In this document: positions 25,799 to 33,006 of the stretch, in pieces
Position numbering within the stretch: the first letter of the stretch is position 1
Layout: each line of letters begins with the position of its first letter
DNA from: Actinomycetota bacterium
Lineage (GTDB): Bacteria; Actinomycetota; Actinomycetes; Streptosporangiales; Streptosporangiaceae
Assembly: GCA_003168215.1 (NCBI GenBank)
Contig: PMSW01000054.1
Coordinates: 35,949 to 71,327, forward strand
Direction of reading: 5' to 3'
Length of the DNA stretch: 35,379 bases
Program-made: the position numbers and the translations under genes
The notes under the pieces: model-generated
The model's database searches: none
What the model was told of the DNA's origin: nothing
Seen by the model: the letters and a program-made list of their open reading frames with translations, nothing else

Positions 25799-25846
25799 GT
25801 GGGGCGGGTGGGGCTCGAACCCACGACCGGCGGATTATGAGTCCGC
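25799..25846. repeat. Distal attachment site: 48-bp copy of the tRNA 3' part
   Basis: This sequence is identical over 48 bp to 32932-32979. It covers 46 of the 74 tRNA nucleotides, from the 5' side of the anticodon stem to the acceptor end. The rest of the tRNA is missing, so it is the site left at the far end of an element that inserted in the tRNA gene. Confidence 0.88.
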
Positions 25847-26386
25847 GCGACTGTCGTTCATGCAGGTCCGGGAGCGACCTGACCTGCGCACATGAACCCT
25901 CCCGGCACCCTGCGGACCCAGGTGAACTGCAACCAGAACTGCAACCATCGATACCGGGCCGCCAGGGCGCAATGCCAGCGACGAGTGCCCCGCCGCGTAT
26001 TACAGGCCGCCGCAGCCGACCCGAGACGCCGCAATGCCTGAGCCGTCGCCGGCCCGGCCGGGCGGGCGTGCCGTTGCTGGAGGAGTACCTGGGGTTTGCC
26101 GCTGGGCGGGCTCGGGCCAGCGCTCGCCGGGGACCGCGCTGGTCGCGGCCTGCGCCCCGAGGATTCCCGGCATGGCTGAGGACATCCGGGATCCGATCCG
26201 GGGTCCTGCACTCTTGACGGTGCCAGCCGTTCGTGGTACTTAATCCGCAGGTCTGCATGAAGGTGCGGCACGGCGCCTGGCGGCCAGGAAGCGAGGGCCG
26301 CCGGGGCCTTATTCCGGCGCTCTGGCGCGCGGGGCGTGCGGGCCTTCGCAGGCGACGGCCGCCAGGCCGGCCGCTAAAGGGGAACA
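25847..26386. other. Left-end noncoding region of the island with short repeats
   Basis: About 540 bp without a supportable gene. AACTGCAACC occurs at 25925-25934 and 25937-25946, and once more just outside at 25736-25745. These repeats flank the attachment site and could be integrase arm-binding sites. Long frames here are shadows of high GC content. Confidence 0.35.
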
Positions 26387-27641
26387 ATGCGGGCCGCAGG
26401 CTTCATCACCGACAGGCCGGGCTGGTTACCACGGCGCTGTTCCGCCCGCGGCGTCTGCTACTGCCTGGCGGTGCTGGCGGTGCTGACGCTGGGGGGGTGC
26501 ACCGGCGGCGGCGGAGGTGGCCCGCACGCTGTCGGCAGTGCTGCGTTGCGGGCGTCGCTGCGCAGCGACCTGGACCACTACCTGACGGCCCGCAGAAAAG
26601 CAGAGCACATCTCCGCGGTCGCGCTGCGGGTTACCTTCCGCGGAGGCCAGCCCGCCATCAACGTGACCGCCGGGACGACCCGGTACGACGGCGGGGTGCC
26701 CGTCTCCTCCAGCGCACTGTGGCAGATCGGCAGCAACACCAAGGCCTTCACCGCGGTGATGCTGCTGCAACTGGAGGCCGAGGCAAGCTATCGATCACCG
26801 ACCCGCTCGGGCAATGGCTTCCCCAGTATCCGGCCTGGCGCGGCATCACCATCAAGCGGCTGCTCGACATGACCAGCGGCATCCCGGACTATACCGACCA
26901 GCCCGCCTTCCTGCGCGCGAGGGCGGACACGCCGGACAGGCACTTCTCCGCGGCCCGCCTGGTGTCGTACGTCGCCGGCGCCGTCACCGGCGATCTATGG
27001 AACTACTCCAATACGAACTACCTCCTCGCCCAGATGATCATCGAGCGGGTCACGCACGATACTTACGGTGACCAGCTCATGAAACGGATCATCATCCCGC
27101 TCCGGCTGCACAGCGTGTGCTACGCGCCCTATACCTGCTCGGCTGCCGCGGCCGCCCGGATGCCGGCCGGGTACTTCTTCGGATCTGAGGTGCAGCAGGC
27201 ACCGCTGCTAGGCAAGCCGGTTCCCCCGCTCGCCCTCACGTGGGCGCAGGGCGCCGGGGGATAGTGAGCTCGCTGCAGGACATGACCACCTGGGACCGGG
27301 CCCTCTACCAGGGCCAGGAGCTGCCGCCACCGCAGCAGCGCCAGCTCGAGAGCCTTGTCTCCACCACCACCGGCAAGCCGATCCCGGGAACAACGCCCAC
27401 CGGTCCGGTCGGCTACGGGCTAGGCGTCGAGCAGGGCACCAGCCGGCCCACCGGAACAGTGTGGGACTACGAAGGCGAGACCCACGGCTACCGGGTCCTT
27501 CACATCTACTTCCCCCGCTCCGGCCTGATCATCGCGCTCGCCGCTAACAGCGCCCTGGACAACGACAAAGACGAACTGGGCAAGCTAGCGGTATCGGTGT
27601 ACCAGACACTGCAAAAGGCAGGCGCCGTTCACGTGAGCTGA
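26387..27641 (+). pseudogene. Lipoprotein serine hydrolase (beta-lactamase/DD-peptidase fold) with two frameshifts
   Basis: Frame one starts MRAAGFITDRPGWLPRRC and has a lipoprotein signal ending LTLGGC, then the active site QIGSNTKAFTA (SxxK). It breaks at about 26784 after QLEAE. The second frame resumes with GKLSITDPLGQWLPQYPAW and carries YSNTNY (YxN motif), then stops at TAG about 27262. The third frame resumes GIVSSLQDMTTWDRALY and runs through ETHGYRVLHI to a stop at 27641. Each break is explained by loss of a single base. The catalytic motifs survive, so decay is recent or the assembly has errors. The intact form would be a membrane-anchored penicillin-binding-like hydrolase. Confidence 0.78.
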
Positions 27642-28140
27642 AAACCCGGCTTGCACGTTTCCTCAACTCCGCCAGACACACGACACCCTAAAGATGATCA
27701 GAAAAGGTTCCCCGCCCGGCCGCCGCCGGGCGGCTCATCGCGTCGAGGGAGCGCTTGCTAGCCAAGATCACCGTGCCAGTGACCACGGGGCAGCACCGGT
27801 CCCTGCCAGTCACTCACGAGTGGGGCGGCGCGCTGAACCCGTCGATCCGGAAGCGCCATCCGGATCGACCGGTGCATCGGCATGGCGGGCTCGGACTGCC
27901 CGGCGTGCCTTCTGCTGACACGGCCGTGCTTGCCTGGTGTGTCTATATCGGTCGTCTTCCGTGACATTTCGGACCCTCGTCCCGGATGGATGTCTCCCAT
28001 CTACGGGCGGCGCACCACGACGGCCTGATTCTGTCAAGGTGCCAGCTATGAGCAGACCCGGGTACCGACAGTCACAGGTTGACCGTGGCTTCTATGGTCA
28101 GGCGGGACCGCATGTGGGCTGATCTGGGATTTGCGGTGAC
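27642..28140. other. Noncoding stretch with two strong hairpins
   Basis: About 500 bp without a supportable gene. CCGCCCGGC-CGCC-GCCGGGCGG (27712-27733) is a perfect 9-bp stem about 70 bp after the hydrolase stop, a plausible terminator. GTCGATCCGG (27841-27850) pairs perfectly with CCGGATCGAC (27860-27869) around a 9-nt loop. A small RNA or leftover repeat is possible. Confidence 0.4.
27712..27733 (+). terminator. Perfect 9-bp GC hairpin
   Basis: CCGCCCGGC and GCCGGGCGG are separated by CGCC, downstream of the hydrolase relic. There is no T-run, as is common for actinobacterial terminators. Confidence 0.4.
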
Positions 28141-28187
28141 CGTGAACATGTTTGGCGCCGGTTGCGGATAACAGATATAGCCTCCCG
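28141..28187 (+). promoter_or_regulatory. Conserved upstream block, copy 1
   Basis: This block matches 28946-28992 at 38 of 47 positions. Shared cores are AACATGTT, TGCGGATA, CAG and TAGCCT. It ends 34 bp before ATG 28222, the same setting as copy 2 before the sigma gene, so it is probably a promoter for the island-encoded sigma factor. Confidence 0.6.
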
Positions 28188-28221
28188 CTCCTGGCAGGCT
28201 CCCTTGCAGAAAGAGGTCACC

Positions 28222-28785
28222 ATGTCCCAGTCCTACCCGTCCAGCCGCCAGCAGGCCCAGCCGCTGCGGCCTCCCGCGCCCGCGCGGGTGCTGACCGCGG
28301 TCAAGCTCATGTACGCCGGCGCCGCCGTCAGCACCGTCACCCTGATCATCGCGGTGGCCCTGATCCCCGCCATCAAGGCCGCGCTCCGCAAGGCGCACCC
28401 GAGCCTGACCGTGGCCCAGGTCGGCCATGTGAACACGCTCATTACGCTGGCGGTGGTCTTCGGCCTGGTCGTGATCGCCCTGTGGCTGTGGATGGCTCGG
28501 GCGAACGGCCAGGGCAGGAACTGGGCGCGCGTCCTGTGCACGGTGCTGCTCGGCCTGGCGACGCTGGAGCTGATCAGGGTCAGGCCGCATTATCCAAGCA
28601 ACTATCTCGCTCATTTTGTCATCGGGGGCCACCTGTACTCGGTGATCCATTCCGCGTTCGGCGCGACGGTGCTCGGCCTGATCGTCCCCGTGCTGCTCTG
28701 GCTGACCGGCCTGGCCGCGGTGTGGCTGCTCTGGCGCCCGGCCTCCGGCGCGTTCTTCAAGCCGCATGGCGCGCCTGCTGCCTAG
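28222..28785 (+). CDS. Four-TM membrane protein of unknown function (paralogue of the 29626 C-terminal module)
   Basis: The 187-residue protein has a Pro/Gln-rich start and TM segments at about 24-48 (LMYAGAAVSTVTLIIAVALI), 68-90, 98-118 and 145-175. Hallmarks are LWLWMARANGQGRNWARVL and the ending AVWLLWRPASGAFFK. The same hallmarks occur in 29626-30255 (LWLWMARATSQGRGWARIL, AVWLLWRPASSAFFK). I recognise the pattern from actinobacterial uncharacterised proteins but know no function. ATG 28222 follows AAGAGG. An in-frame start at 28162 would lie inside the conserved upstream block and is rejected. Confidence 0.78.
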   Translation: MSQSYPSSRQQAQPLRPPAPARVLTAVKLMYAGAAVSTVTLIIAVALIPAIKAALRKAHPSLTVAQVGHVNTLITLAVVFGLVVIALWLWMARANGQGRNWARVLCTVLLGLATLELIRVRPHYPSNYLAHFVIGGHLYSVIHSAFGATVLGLIVPVLLWLTGLAAVWLLWRPASGAFFKPHGAPAA

Positions 28786-28945
28786 CAGCCCGGCTGGAAG
28801 CCGGGGCAGTTGCCAGGTGCCGCCGGAAGCAGATGCGTCAGGTCCGCAGGTCCCGGAAATACACCAACCAGCTGATATGGATGTCGCCTGGAATGTCGCA
28901 AGAGCCTTGACTGCTCAGCTGGCGGGCGCTGTGCTGAGCGGTGCC

Positions 28946-28992
28946 CGTAAACATGTTGGGCACCGACTGCGGATAGCAGGTGTAGCCTGCCG
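28946..28992 (+). promoter_or_regulatory. Conserved upstream block, copy 2
   Basis: Second copy of the 47-bp block, ending 38 bp before the sigma-factor ATG 29031. Conservation of placement and sequence in front of both genes, in otherwise dissimilar spacers, favours a promoter over chance. Confidence 0.6.
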
Positions 28993-29013
28993 GGCACCCG
29001 GAAGGGCATCGGC

Positions 29014-29034
29014 ATGAATCAAGGTCGCCCATGA
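29014..29034 (+). other. Possible six-codon leader ORF overlapping the sigma start
   Basis: ATG 29014 opens MNQGRP and ends in TGA 29032-29034, overlapping the sigma ATG 29031 (ATGA). GGAAGG lies upstream at about 29000-29005. It could couple translation of the sigma gene to an upstream initiation. It is very short, so chance is possible. Confidence 0.3.
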
Positions 29035-29633
29035 GGCAGCGCCGGGGATCCGCCGCCGCAGATGATGCTGCGGTCATCGAGAGTTCCTGGCGGGAGCCGG
29101 AGCGGTTCGCGGTCCTGTTTGACCGGCACGCCCCGCACATTTACCGCTACCTTGCCCGGTGTGCTGGCCCCCAGGTTGCCGATGACCTGGTGGCCGAGAC
29201 GTTCTTGGCCGCTTTCGCCAAGCGGGACCGGTATGACTTGGGCCACGCCGATGCCCGGCCCTGGCTGTACGGTATCGCCACCAACCTGGTCGGCCAGCAT
29301 CGCAGGGACCAGGCCCGCCAGTACAAGATCACGCAGGCCGCCGCGGCCGAGCCTGAGGTTCCCGGTCACGCCGAACGGGTGGCCGCCGATGTCACGGCCC
29401 AGGCGATGCGCCCGCTGCTGGACGCGGCGCTGGCCGCGCTGCCGGCCGGTGACCGGGACGTGCTGCTGCTCATCGCCTGGGAGCAGCTGACCTATAAGGA
29501 GGTGTCGCGGGCGCTGGCCATCCCGGTGGGGACGGTGCAGTCCAGGCTGCACCGGGCGCGCACCAAGACGCGCCAGATCCTGGCCGGTACCGATGCGGGG
29601 GCAACGTATGAGGAGCTCACGACCAATGAATGA
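29031..29633 (+). CDS. ECF-type RNA polymerase sigma factor
   Basis: The 200-residue protein has sigma2 at about residues 25-95 (RFAVLFDRHAPHIYRYLA, then VADDLVAETFLAAFAKR, and ARPWLYGIATNLVGQHRR). Sigma4 lies at about 130-185 (AALAALPAGDRDVLLLIAWEQLTYKEVSRAL, then VGTVQSRLHRARTK). There is no C-terminal extension. It overlaps the next gene by 8 bp, so sigma and partner are made together. The conserved block 28946-28992 upstream suggests that it drives its own operon and the membrane gene at 28222. Confidence 0.9.
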   Translation: MRQRRGSAAADDAAVIESSWREPERFAVLFDRHAPHIYRYLARCAGPQVADDLVAETFLAAFAKRDRYDLGHADARPWLYGIATNLVGQHRRDQARQYKITQAAAAEPEVPGHAERVAADVTAQAMRPLLDAALAALPAGDRDVLLLIAWEQLTYKEVSRALAIPVGTVQSRLHRARTKTRQILAGTDAGATYEELTTNE

Positions 29634-30255
29634 GATGGAGCTGCTCCGGGAGCTGGCGCAGCAGACGCCGCTGCCCGCGCCTGCCGAGCTGGCCGCGGCC
29701 CGCGCCAGGCTCCTCGCCGCGATCACCACCGATCCGGCCACGTACGCCACAGCCGTAGCACAGGCCACCACGGGCCAGCCTGCCGATCCGCTGCGGCCGC
29801 CCGCGCCCGCGCCGGTGCGGACCGCAGCCAGGTTCATGCGCGGGGGCGCCATCAGCTCCGCCGCGCTCGTGATCGTCGCGCTGCCCTTCGCGGGCGACCT
29901 CAACGGTCACGTGCTCGGGCACCGCATGGCCCCGACTCCGCTCACCATCACGCTGGTGATACTCGCCGGCCTGGCCCTGATCGGCCTGTGGCTGTGGATG
30001 GCGCGGGCGACCAGCCAGGGCAGGGGCTGGGCGCGCATCCTGTCCACGGTGCTGTTCTGCCTGGCGACGCTGGAGTTCTTGTCGGCGCTGGAGGTGATCG
30101 GCAAAAATGGCGTCGCGCAGGCGTTCGTCGCCGGGCTGACCTGGCTGTCCGGCCTCGGCGCGGTTTGGCTGCTCTGGCGCCCGGCCTCCAGCGCGTTCTT
30201 CAAGTCGGCCAAGGCGGCGCGGTCGCGGCCGCCGCCGCAAATTTCAGGCCCCTAA
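29626..30255 (+). CDS. Probable sigma-factor partner fused to a four-TM module
   Basis: The 209-residue protein starts MNEMELLRELAQQTPLPAPA, followed by ELAAARARLLAAI. This soluble segment resembles the N-terminus of CU044_5270-type proteins encoded after actinobacterial ECF sigma factors. After a Pro-rich linker it has four TM segments (around FMRGGAISSAALVIVALPF, LVILAGLALIGLWLWM, ILSTVLFCLATLEFLSAL and GLTWLSGLGAVWLLW) and the same QGRGWAR and WRPASSAFFK hallmarks as the protein at 28222-28785. Inference: a membrane-tethered regulator that binds the sigma factor through its N-terminus and senses through the four-TM domain. ATG 29626 is preferred over 29593. Confidence 0.75.
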   Translation: MNEMELLRELAQQTPLPAPAELAAARARLLAAITTDPATYATAVAQATTGQPADPLRPPAPAPVRTAARFMRGGAISSAALVIVALPFAGDLNGHVLGHRMAPTPLTITLVILAGLALIGLWLWMARATSQGRGWARILSTVLFCLATLEFLSALEVIGKNGVAQAFVAGLTWLSGLGAVWLLWRPASSAFFKSAKAARSRPPPQISGP

Positions 30256-30674
30256 CAGTCGTCCGTGGCCCCCGGGTGACGCCGCTACGGCGTGAAATTT
30301 TGGCAGCTGACCCGCCGTCCCGGTGGAGCCCGGCTGCGCCGGGCGCTGCATCGGCTAGGCGCTGTGCGAACTCCCGCCGTCGCAGAAATCACGGCCTCAG
30401 TTCCCATGCCAGGCACGCGATTCGGCGGAACACGGCAACCTGCCGGCCCAGGCCCGGCACGCAGGGCGCACGCCAGATCTGGGTAATCTGTGGCCCCACA
30501 CGCCTGCGCTTTCCCGGTTGCACGCGTACCGATTCGATCTGGGCGATCCTGCAAAGTAGTAGCGCGGGGACATTGCTTACTTGCGTCGCGGAAATGGTCC
30601 GGACTTGGCATGCAGACCTGATCTTCGCTGCATGGTGTCGTGCCAGGCGCTGCAGGACTTGCGCGATGGCGATG
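30256..30674. other. Noncoding region after the sigma operon
   Basis: About 420 bp between the sigma-partner gene and the minus-strand antitoxin, both ending here. Apart from the hairpin at 30328-30344, no gene with plausible start and composition is seen. Confidence 0.4.
30328..30344 (+). terminator. GC hairpin after the sigma operon
   Basis: GCCCGGC-TGC-GCCGGGC is a perfect 7-bp stem with a 3-nt loop, 73 bp past the stop of the sigma-partner gene. Confidence 0.4.
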
Positions 30675-30983
30675 TCAGCCTACGCGCAGGAGCTCATCGC
30701 CGAAGTCAGCCATGAGGCTGAGGCGGCCGCCGAGCGCCTCGACGTAGCGGTCCAGCACGTCCCGGGTGGAGACCCGGCCCTTCTCGATCTGGCTGACCCG
30801 GCTCTTCCCGACCCCCATCCGGGCCGCGACCTGGGCCTGGGTCATGCCCCGGCGGCGGCGGATCTCCGCCAGCCGCCAGCCGCGTGCCTCGGCGAGCATC
30901 TGCTCCTTGCCCGCCTCGAATTCCTCCCGCCCGACCCGCTCGATGTGCTCATCGCGGATATCGGACCACCTGGTGAATGTCAT
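30675..30983 (-). CDS. HigA-like XRE antitoxin
   Basis: The 102-residue protein has a helical N-terminus (WSDIRDEHIERVGREEFEAGKEQMLAEARGWRLAEIRRRRG) and a Cro/C1-type HTH (MTQAQVAARMGVGKSRVSQIEKGRV, about residues 47-71). A DVLDRYVEALGGRLSLMADFGDE tail follows. It is the DNA-binding antitoxin of an actinobacterial HigBA-type pair. Its ATG (30983-30981) overlaps the stop of the upstream toxin relic (ATGA). It is intact and may still act as a repressor at 31242-31259. Confidence 0.85.
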   Translation of the reverse strand: MTFTRWSDIRDEHIERVGREEFEAGKEQMLAEARGWRLAEIRRRRGMTQAQVAARMGVGKSRVSQIEKGRVSTRDVLDRYVEALGGRLSLMADFGDELLRVG

Positions 30984-31250
30984 CGGCCCCGTTCCTCTTC
31001 CCCGGCGCGTTCCTTCAGGTATATCTCCAGCAGCTGCTCAGCCCGCGGGATCGCGTGCCGGTACCACTGCTGCCAGTTACCGGCCAAGGGATGGACCGCG
31101 GTCGGCGAGGATGTCGATCGCCTGCGCGACCAGCTTGTGCGACCGCTCATCAAGGGCAGCGACCCAGTCGCGGACCTCGTCGGTCAGGTAGATCTCCCAA
31201 TCGTCCAACTGCCTGCCAGCCTTCCGTCCCGGCCACCTCAAGTTTAGCAT
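30980..31250 (-). pseudogene. HigB-like (Gp49/DUF891) toxin with internal deletion and frameshift
   Basis: From ATG 31250 the frame reads to DDWEIYLTDEVRDWVAALDERS and RGPSLGR, then stops at a TAA about 31047. In a second frame the text resumes NWQQWYRHAIPRAEQLLEIYLKERAGEEERGR and stops at 30980, overlapping the antitoxin start. In the family, about 50-60 residues separate these two segments (the LKELRP and ILFAFDP strands with catalytic basic residues). They are missing here, so the toxin is inactive. Confidence 0.72.
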
Positions 31251-31259
31251 CTTGTAAAC
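31242..31259. promoter_or_regulatory. Dyad over the toxin-relic start
   Basis: GTTTA (31242-31246) and TAAAC (31255-31259) are perfect inverted repeats around 8 nt, overlapping the ATG at 31250. HigA-type antitoxins bind such dyads at their own promoter, so it is a candidate operator. Confidence 0.4.
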
Positions 31260-31303
31260 ACCTCGGGCTGCCCGCGCTATCAAACCGCTCCTCCTGGACG
31301 CCT

Positions 31304-31343
31304 CCGCGGCCGGCCGGGACTCGCGAGTCCCGGCCGGCCGCGG
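31304..31343. repeat. 40-bp perfect palindrome
   Basis: Left arm CCGCGGCCGGCCGGGACTCG (31304-31323) is the exact reverse complement of 31324-31343, with no spacer. It lies between the divergent toxin relic and the integrase gene, 45 bp before the integrase ATG. Such an extended GC-rich cruciform could be a bidirectional terminator, a regulator site or a processing site of the element. Confidence 0.75.
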
Positions 31344-31388
31344 TGCCCCATGCGGGCTGACCGTGGATGAGGCTAGAGGAGGACGATC

Positions 31389-32840
31389 ATGACCGCTCAG
31401 GGCAGCGTGTACAGCTGGTGCGAGTGCCGGGACCAGCGGACAGGGCGGCGGCTGGGCAGCAAATGCCAGCGCCGCGGGCAGCCGGGGCACGGCAGCTGGT
31501 ACGTCAGCGTGGAACTGCCCGCCGGGCCGGGCGGGAACCGCCGCCGGATCCGACGCGGCGGGTTCCCTGACCGGACGGCCGCGGATGCCGCGCTGGCACG
31601 GCTGGTGATGCCCGCGACGGGCGGCCCCGCGGATCACCTGATGACTGTCGGGCAGTGGCTGAGGCACTGGCTCGATAGCCGGGCAGCGCCGAGGTTCTCG
31701 ACGCTGCGGGGGTACGCCTCGCATATCCGGCTGTACCTGGATCCGTGCCTGGGCCAGATCCTGCTGGCTGACCTGAGGACCGCTCATGTCCAGGCGATGT
31801 TCACCGCGATCACGCGCCAGCGGGAGGCGGAGGGACGGCCGGTCACTGTGGCCACCCTGGCGCGGATCAAGGCGACACTGCGGGCCGCGCTGAACGCCGC
31901 GATCCGGGCCGGCTACCTCGCCGACAACCCCGCATGCCACGCCGAGCTGCCGCCTGGCCGGCGGCCCCGCCCGGTGGTATGGACTACGGCGCGGGTCCGG
32001 GAGTGGGAGCGGACCGGGATCCGGCCGCCGGTAGCAGTATGGATGCCCGCGCAGACCGCCTGGTTCCTGAACTCGATCCAGGGCGACCGCCTGTACGCGG
32101 CCTATCACCTGATCGCGCTGCGCGGGCTGCGCCGCGGCGAGGCTGCCGGGCTGCGCTGGTGTGACGTCGACCTGGAGGGCGCGACCGCGGTGATCAGCCA
32201 GCAGCTGCAGCAATACGGCGGGCACCTGGCCGCGTGCCCGCCCAAGACAGGAAGCAGCGAGCGCGCCGTCGCGCTCGACCGCACCACTGTCACCGTGCTG
32301 CGGCGGCATCGCGCCGCCCAGGAAGCCGAGTGCGCAGCCATGGGGGCCGGCTATCACGACAGCGGGTACGTGTTCACCGGCATCCAGGGTGACCCGATGG
32401 CACCCGGCCGGCTGTCCCGCCGCTTCCGGCAGCTGTCGGCCGAGGCCGGCCTGCCTCCCGTCAGGCTGCATGACCTCCGGCACGGCGCGGCCAGCCTCGC
32501 CCTGGCCGCGGGCGCGGAGCTGAAAACAGTGCAAGATCAGCTCGGGCACTCCAGCATCGTGCTGACCGCAGACACTTACATCTCGGTCCTGCCAGAAGTA
32601 GCCCGCAAGACAGCAGAGGATACGGCCACCCTGGTCATCCAGGCCGGCTACCGCGTCCCGGGAACCAGGCGACCCCGGCGCCGATCCGGACTCCGGCCAC
32701 TGCGCCGGCGCGTCCGGGCCGCGGTTCTGGGCGACGCCAGCCTTGCTCATCCCGCCCGGCAGATCGGACGTCCAGCCCGACGCATCCGTCCAGCCCGGCC
32801 CGGCGGCTGGATCAGGAAACGGCGCGATCTGGGTACCTGA
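31389..32840 (+). CDS. int: Tyrosine site-specific recombinase (integrase)
   Basis: The 483-residue integrase has a Cys-containing N-terminal segment (WCECRDQRTGRRLGSKC), a SAM-like DNA-binding core at about 85-185 (MTVGQWLRHWLDSRAAPRFSTLRGYASHIRLYL), and a catalytic domain with Arg about 248 (LRGLRRGEAAGLRW). Lys286 (PPKTGSS), His361 and Arg364 (HDLRHG), His387 (LGHSS) and nucleophile Tyr397 (TADTYIS) complete the active site. The C-terminal 70 residues are strongly basic and unusual. GAGGAGG lies 7 nt before ATG 31389. Its end is 93 bp from the tRNA 3' end, fitting insertion into that tRNA gene. Confidence 0.95.
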   Translation: MTAQGSVYSWCECRDQRTGRRLGSKCQRRGQPGHGSWYVSVELPAGPGGNRRRIRRGGFPDRTAADAALARLVMPATGGPADHLMTVGQWLRHWLDSRAAPRFSTLRGYASHIRLYLDPCLGQILLADLRTAHVQAMFTAITRQREAEGRPVTVATLARIKATLRAALNAAIRAGYLADNPACHAELPPGRRPRPVVWTTARVREWERTGIRPPVAVWMPAQTAWFLNSIQGDRLYAAYHLIALRGLRRGEAAGLRWCDVDLEGATAVISQQLQQYGGHLAACPPKTGSSERAVALDRTTVTVLRRHRAAQEAECAAMGAGYHDSGYVFTGIQGDPMAPGRLSRRFRQLSAEAGLPPVRLHDLRHGAASLALAAGAELKTVQDQLGHSSIVLTADTYISVLPEVARKTAEDTATLVIQAGYRVPGTRRPRRRSGLRPLRRRVRAAVLGDASLAHPARQIGRPARRIRPARPGGWIRKRRDLGT

Positions 32841-32931
32841 CAGCCAGAACCGGCCATACCCTGGCCAGCGCCTGCCCATACCGGGGCAGCCAGGCGTCCG
32901 CCTTTATCGGCATGAGCCCAGGTCAGGATGG

Positions 32932-32979
32932 GTGGGGCGGGTGGGGCTCGAACCCACGACCGGCGGATTATGAGTCCGC
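32932..32979. repeat. Proximal attachment site inside the tRNA gene
   Basis: Identical over 48 bp to 25799-25846. It spans the tRNA from the anticodon-stem 5' side (32979) to the 3' end plus one base (32932), so integration restored a complete tRNA. Confidence 0.88.
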
Positions 32980-33006
32980 TGCTCTGACCAGCTGAGCTAC
33001 CGCCCC
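32933..33006 (-). tRNA. tRNA with CAU anticodon (elongator Met, or Ile2)
   Basis: A 74-nt cloverleaf folds on the minus strand. Acceptor GGGGCGG pairs with CCGCCCC and the discriminator is A. The D stem is GCTC/GAGC, the anticodon stem GCGGA/TCCGC with loop CTCATAA (CAT at 32972-32970), and the T stem GTGGG/CCCAC with loop TTCGAGC. CCA is not encoded in full. CAU may be elongator Met or lysidine-modified Ile2; initiator is unlikely because the first pair is G-C. It is the insertion target of the island. Confidence 0.92.

Follow-up and report, generated by a model that had tools for sequence, protein, structure and literature searches.

A mobile ECF sigma factor cassette in which the sensor half of a CU044_5270-type membrane partner appears to have been exchanged for a duplicated four-helix module

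A stretch of 35,379 nucleotides from a soil actinobacterial MAG (4.65 Mb in 176 contigs, 74.6% complete), here called the window, probably encodes an autoregulated ECF circuit that belongs to the sigma/CU044_5270 class but whose membrane partner carries, in place of the usual transmembrane (TM) helix and ectodomain, a four-TM duplicate derived from the neighboring gene. The circuit occupies a cassette of three plus-strand genes: a stand-alone four-TM gene (P0001, 28222-28785, 187 aa), an ECF sigma factor gene (P0002, 29031-29633, 200 aa), and a partner gene (P0003, 29626-30255, 209 aa). The sigma stop and the partner start overlap by 8 nt (ATGAATGA, 29626-29633, plus strand), a layout that reads as an operon. 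Pfam finds Sigma70_r2 (2.9e-13) and Sigma70_r4_2 (7.6e-16) in P0002, which has sigma2 and sigma4 only and is an ECF sigma factor (sigma-70 group 4).

ECF sigma genes paired with a membrane partner of the CU044_5270 family (NF038083) are common and widespread in actinobacteria. When the sigma protein of the window was searched against 151 genomes of the family, we obtained 57 loci with both genes orientable, and a partner gene lay beside sigma in all of them. The partner starts at -8 nt relative to the sigma stop in 22/57 loci, at -4 nt in 31/57, and at +1 nt in 4/57. Class partners are ~250-440 aa long, possess one TM helix in 52 of the 57 cases, and share an N-terminus of the form M-[DN]-[DE]-L-x-L-L-R-x-x-R-A-E-x-P...A-R-x-R-L-L. 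The nearest sigma homologues are each located upstream of a CU044_5270-type gene, and the partner at L118 (genome G002), the nearest canonical relative, scores 130.5 bits against the NCBIfam CU044_5270 cut-off of 100. A sigma tree places the sigma factors of the window and of a second genome, G014, as sister to L118 (support 100/99). Because of the overlapping class-type partners and the L118 partner above the cut-off, we assign the window sigma factor to the ECF/CU044_5270 class.

The window pair resembles other pairs of the class in sigma subfamily, gene order, the -8/-4 overlap, the partner N-terminus, and a GTGAAC/GGGAAC-type autopromoter. It differs from them in having a partner with four TM helices, no ectodomain, and no NF038083 match, and in having a paralogue of the module under a second promoter copy. 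The sequence-only reading had regarded the layout as undescribed. This needs amending: the sigma-partner pair itself is the widespread ECF/CU044_5270 one, and the unusual features are the exchanged C-terminal half of the partner and the recruitment of the paralogue. What is new is that a local duplication produced the sensor swap, that a paralogue has been recruited behind a further copy of the class promoter, and that the whole lies on a mobile element.

The partner had been proposed to be a fusion of a sigma-partner-like N-terminus with a TM module paralogous to the gene at 28222, and each element of this proposal was borne out. An HMM of residues 1-55 from 41 CU044_5270-type partners linked to sigma genes, built with the window and G014 left out, was run against 2,363 ORFs; it matched the window partner at E=5e-7, and the best unrelated ORF reached 0.56. 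In the AlphaFold2 model (pLDDT 86), N-terminal helices at residues 3-13 and 19-35 are followed by a linker, by TM helices at 62-92, 105-130, 135-156, and 163-183, and by a C-terminal helix. Residues 1-35 (29626-29730, plus strand) constitute the CU044_5270-type N-terminus and the putative sigma-binding part, and residues 62-200 (29809-30225, plus strand) constitute the swapped-in four-TM module with its C-terminal helix. Both termini are predicted to be cytosolic, which fits the positive charges in the TM2-TM3 loop (ATSQGRGWAR) and past TM4, and the outer loops would be short, of ~12 and ~7 residues. The class layout of one TM helix and a large C-terminal domain is absent, P0003 having four TM helices and a tail only. 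The whole-protein NF038083 model (cut-off 100 bits) matched neither P0003 nor its 216-aa orthologue in G014.

We think it most likely that the cytosolic N-terminus of the partner, with its two helices in the first ~35 residues, keeps the sigma factor at the membrane. That the partner is not an anti-sigma factor but an activator or a membrane tether on which sigma function depends strikes us as unlikely, although several observations would fit. P0003 matches no anti-sigma family in Pfam or NCBIfam; its N-terminus consists of two short helices and a linker helix, compared with the four helices of class I anti-sigma domains (ASDI) (PMC7406223), which often also carry a zinc motif; and we found no paper that names CU044_5270. 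Against this reading, membrane-anchored anti-sigma factors are the commonest ECF regulators (PMC8103513), and the Caulobacter protein NrsF (DUF1109), with six TMs and a 25-residue N-terminus, represses sigma-F (PMC3511200). In NrsF, too, a short cytosolic N-terminus leads into several TM helices joined by short loops, and the regulon is small (PMC3511200). It comes from a different phylum, however, has six TMs where the window partner has four and no DUF1109 match, and needs two conserved periplasm-side cysteines (PMC3511200) that the short outer loops of the window partner lack. By analogy, NrsF shows that an architecture of short N-terminus plus multi-TM part can work. ECF36 sigma factors (PMC8999054) are also linked to a multi-TM membrane part, but there three to four TM helices and a DUF2275 domain are fused to sigma itself, whereas in the window the membrane part is encoded by a separate overlapping gene.

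The four-TM module belongs to no family in Pfam or NCBIfam, and a Foldseek search against the PDB returned nothing significant. P0001 and the TM part of the partner are 42% identical over 177 aa (E=1e-35), and a tree of 38 modules unites the partner module and P0001, together with their G014 orthologues, in one clade (97/100). By phylogeny, the partner module is therefore a copy that arose locally from the adjacent gene at 28222. In the simplest history, the lineage first split from L118, and a copy of the stand-alone gene then took the place of the TM helix and ectodomain in its CU044_5270-type partner.

Among 343 genomes of the family, the fused partner is present in the window genome (G000) and G014 only; none was found in viral contigs, and no relatives of P0001 were found in plasmids. 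G014 (contig JAFAPY010000074.1, Streptosporangiaceae MAG CP_BM_ER_50, L049/L050) contains all three cassette genes, with 87% DNA identity to the window over 28133-28766 and 88% over 28981-30258. Homology ends at 28133, just upstream of the TM-gene promoter, and at 30258. Between the two genomes, sigma has a dN/dS of 0.33, compared with the higher ratios of 0.76 (TM gene) and 0.65 (partner), values that point to a constrained sigma factor and to two membrane proteins that are under weak constraint and evolving fast.

Other homologues of the module occur in about 26 additional genomes of the family (E<1e-14), mostly as stand-alone genes, many of them with a MYQPYP-type leader. In G178 (L171:692-1801), two stand-alone four-TM genes lie in tandem, an instance of local duplication in this family without a sigma gene. 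Some genomes instead have it at the C-terminal end of Ser/Thr kinases (L028:1330-3126, L029:1480-3018, and L032:502-2148; Pkinase E ~1e-41). These kinases, like the window partner, join a homologous membrane module to a cytosolic signaling domain, with a kinase where the window partner has the sigma-partner N-terminus. This distribution suggests that the four-TM module is an unnamed membrane input domain common to kinases and an ECF partner.

Both transcription units of the cassette are preceded by a 47-bp block. Copy 1 (28141-28187, plus strand; -35 GTGAAC at 28142-28147, -10 GCGGATA at 28164-28170) is the predicted ECF-type promoter of the TM gene, and copy 2 (28946-28992, plus strand; -35 GTAAAC at 28947-28952, -10 GCGGATA at 28969-28975) is the predicted autoregulatory promoter of the sigma operon. 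The sequence-only reading had described the block accurately: the copies are identical at 38/47 positions, compared with at most 30 for the best ungapped 47-mer when the two upstream regions were shuffled 300 times, and they lie 34 and 38 bp from the start codons of the 28222 gene and the sigma gene, respectively. Transcription would start near 28177 and 28982.

To place the block among the promoters of the class, we used 34 non-redundant loci fetched after the promoter hypothesis had been formed, an unseen set. GTGAAC occurs upstream of sigma in 20 of these 34 loci, compared with a mean of 2.4 and a maximum of 7 in shuffles and with 1 on the opposite strand. When 30 sites were aligned on GTGAAC alone, with no -10 chosen beforehand, fixed columns emerged at +22 (G, 29/30), +26 (A, 27/30), and +28 (A, 22/30), and both window blocks carry them as GTGAAC/GTAAAC-N16-GCGGATA. 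A pattern with a fixed -10 showed only slight enrichment in these loci (5, compared with a mean of 0.64 and a maximum of 4), because the -10 varies among subgroups, and the anchored matrix took its place. This matrix (PWM) was built from other sigma operons, without sequence from the window or G014. Across all window positions on both strands, it ranked copy 1 first (17.8) and copy 2 second (13.8), with the next site at 8.3; 99% of random 250-nt stretches score <4.6. Most class members that do not have GTGAAC carry a variant (e.g., GGGAAC) that scores >4.6, and the L118 promoter, GCGAAC-N16-GCGGAGAAC, scores 17.1. Upstream of the class sigma genes (L118-L145, L185-L224), the promoter is of the GTGAAC/GGGAAC type, with an N16 spacer and GNN[GA]ANA; its core is GTGAAC-N16-GNNGANA. 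The recurrence of this core or its variants upstream of sigma genes across the class makes autoregulation a likely property of ECF/CU044_5270 sigma factors, and the block is, judged by the matrix, this lineage's version of the class promoter. The earlier suggestions that the two transcription units have an autoregulatory promoter in common and that the paralogue is a regulon member thus gain support, the blocks being the two best matrix matches in the window and one of them lying upstream of P0001.

In the genome as a whole (a MAG ~75% complete), the core pattern finds the two blocks and scattered matches, which lie inside ORFs in the contexts examined. We considered a larger regulon in the host genome and rejected it, as the extra matches look like chance.

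The G014 copy shows how far the arrangement is maintained. Its TM-gene promoter is intact (PWM 18.7), and its sigma-proximal promoter is lost or broken (best score -14.5), so strict conservation does not extend to direct autoregulation of the sigma operon. The G014 TM gene ends ~97 nt before sigma, and one promoter could therefore serve all three genes; read-through from the TM gene would have to replace the sigma promoter. Copies of the block before family genes in relatives, which the sequence-only reading had proposed to look for, come down to that of the G014 TM gene: none was found upstream of the stand-alone homologues tested in other genomes.

Could the block be a by-product of the local duplication, that is, copied upstream DNA without a functional shared promoter? 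Its identity spans the spacer as well as the hexamers, which points to common ancestry of the two promoters, and the second copy is the one lost in G014. Both blocks nevertheless fit a matrix derived from other sigma operons, the identity falls off on both sides outside ~55 bp, and G014 retains the first copy although the preceding DNA is unrelated. We judge this explanation to be quite unlikely.

The sequence-only reading had also offered the paralogue at 28222 as a competing decoy that titrates sigma or the sigma-binding part of the partner. A promoter and a module in common with the partner would suit such a role, but P0001 cannot compete for sigma through the N-terminus of the partner, because it lacks that N-terminus and has instead the Pro-rich leader of the stand-alone family, whose members also occur without any such sigma gene; we now consider a decoy very improbable. 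An equally improbable view, that the block is a repressor operator or an RNA element, draws on a perfect AACATGTT palindrome in both window copies, but the palindrome is broken in G014 (AACATGGT) with the promoter elements intact, and Rfam returned a single hit, below threshold and to a human lncRNA model, which we took as chance.

The cassette had been described as island-encoded, and it is found as cargo of an integrative element of ~7.2 kb (25799-32979) at tRNA-Met. An attL-like repeat (25799-25846, plus strand) is identical at 48/48 positions to an attR-like repeat (32932-32979, plus strand), a 48-bp perfect direct repeat that lies inside the tRNA-Met gene (32931-33006, minus strand). A tyrosine integrase gene (31389-32840, plus strand; Phage_integrase 3.4e-19) lies beside the tRNA, so that integrase and terminal direct repeats are arranged as in tRNA-targeted elements, and these repeats set its boundaries. 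The element also contains an XRE-type HTH gene (30675-30983). At 26387-27641, parts of a serine hydrolase (Beta-lactamase family PF00144) lie in different frames, reflecting either a broken gene or assembly indels. In G014, the cassette directly adjoins a JetABC (Wadjet type II) defense operon (L049:1156-7988); it is thus found in different contexts, within a tRNA-Met element and beside JetABC.

In the autoregulated circuit that we favor, the four-TM module of the partner would perceive a signal in or near the bilayer, and its hold on the sigma factor would change. Freed sigma would then act at the two GTGAAC/GTAAAC-N16-GCGGATA promoters and transcribe both the sigma operon and the TM paralogue. 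P0001, the predicted regulon member, may pair with or modulate the partner module, or it may be a response protein. The whole circuit travels as cargo of the tRNA-Met integrative element. More tentatively, the four-TM family may be a portable input module for Ser/Thr kinases and the ECF partner, with the sigma-induced paralogue pairing with the partner as feedback.

The cassette thus presents a natural sensor swap on an ECF partner, in which the ancestor (of the L118 type), the adjacent donor gene, and the product can all be read from the sequence. The swap isolates the first ~35 residues of the partner as the likely sigma-binding unit of the apparently uncharacterized CU044_5270 class. With a class-wide promoter, the regulons of these numerous sigma factors become predictable.
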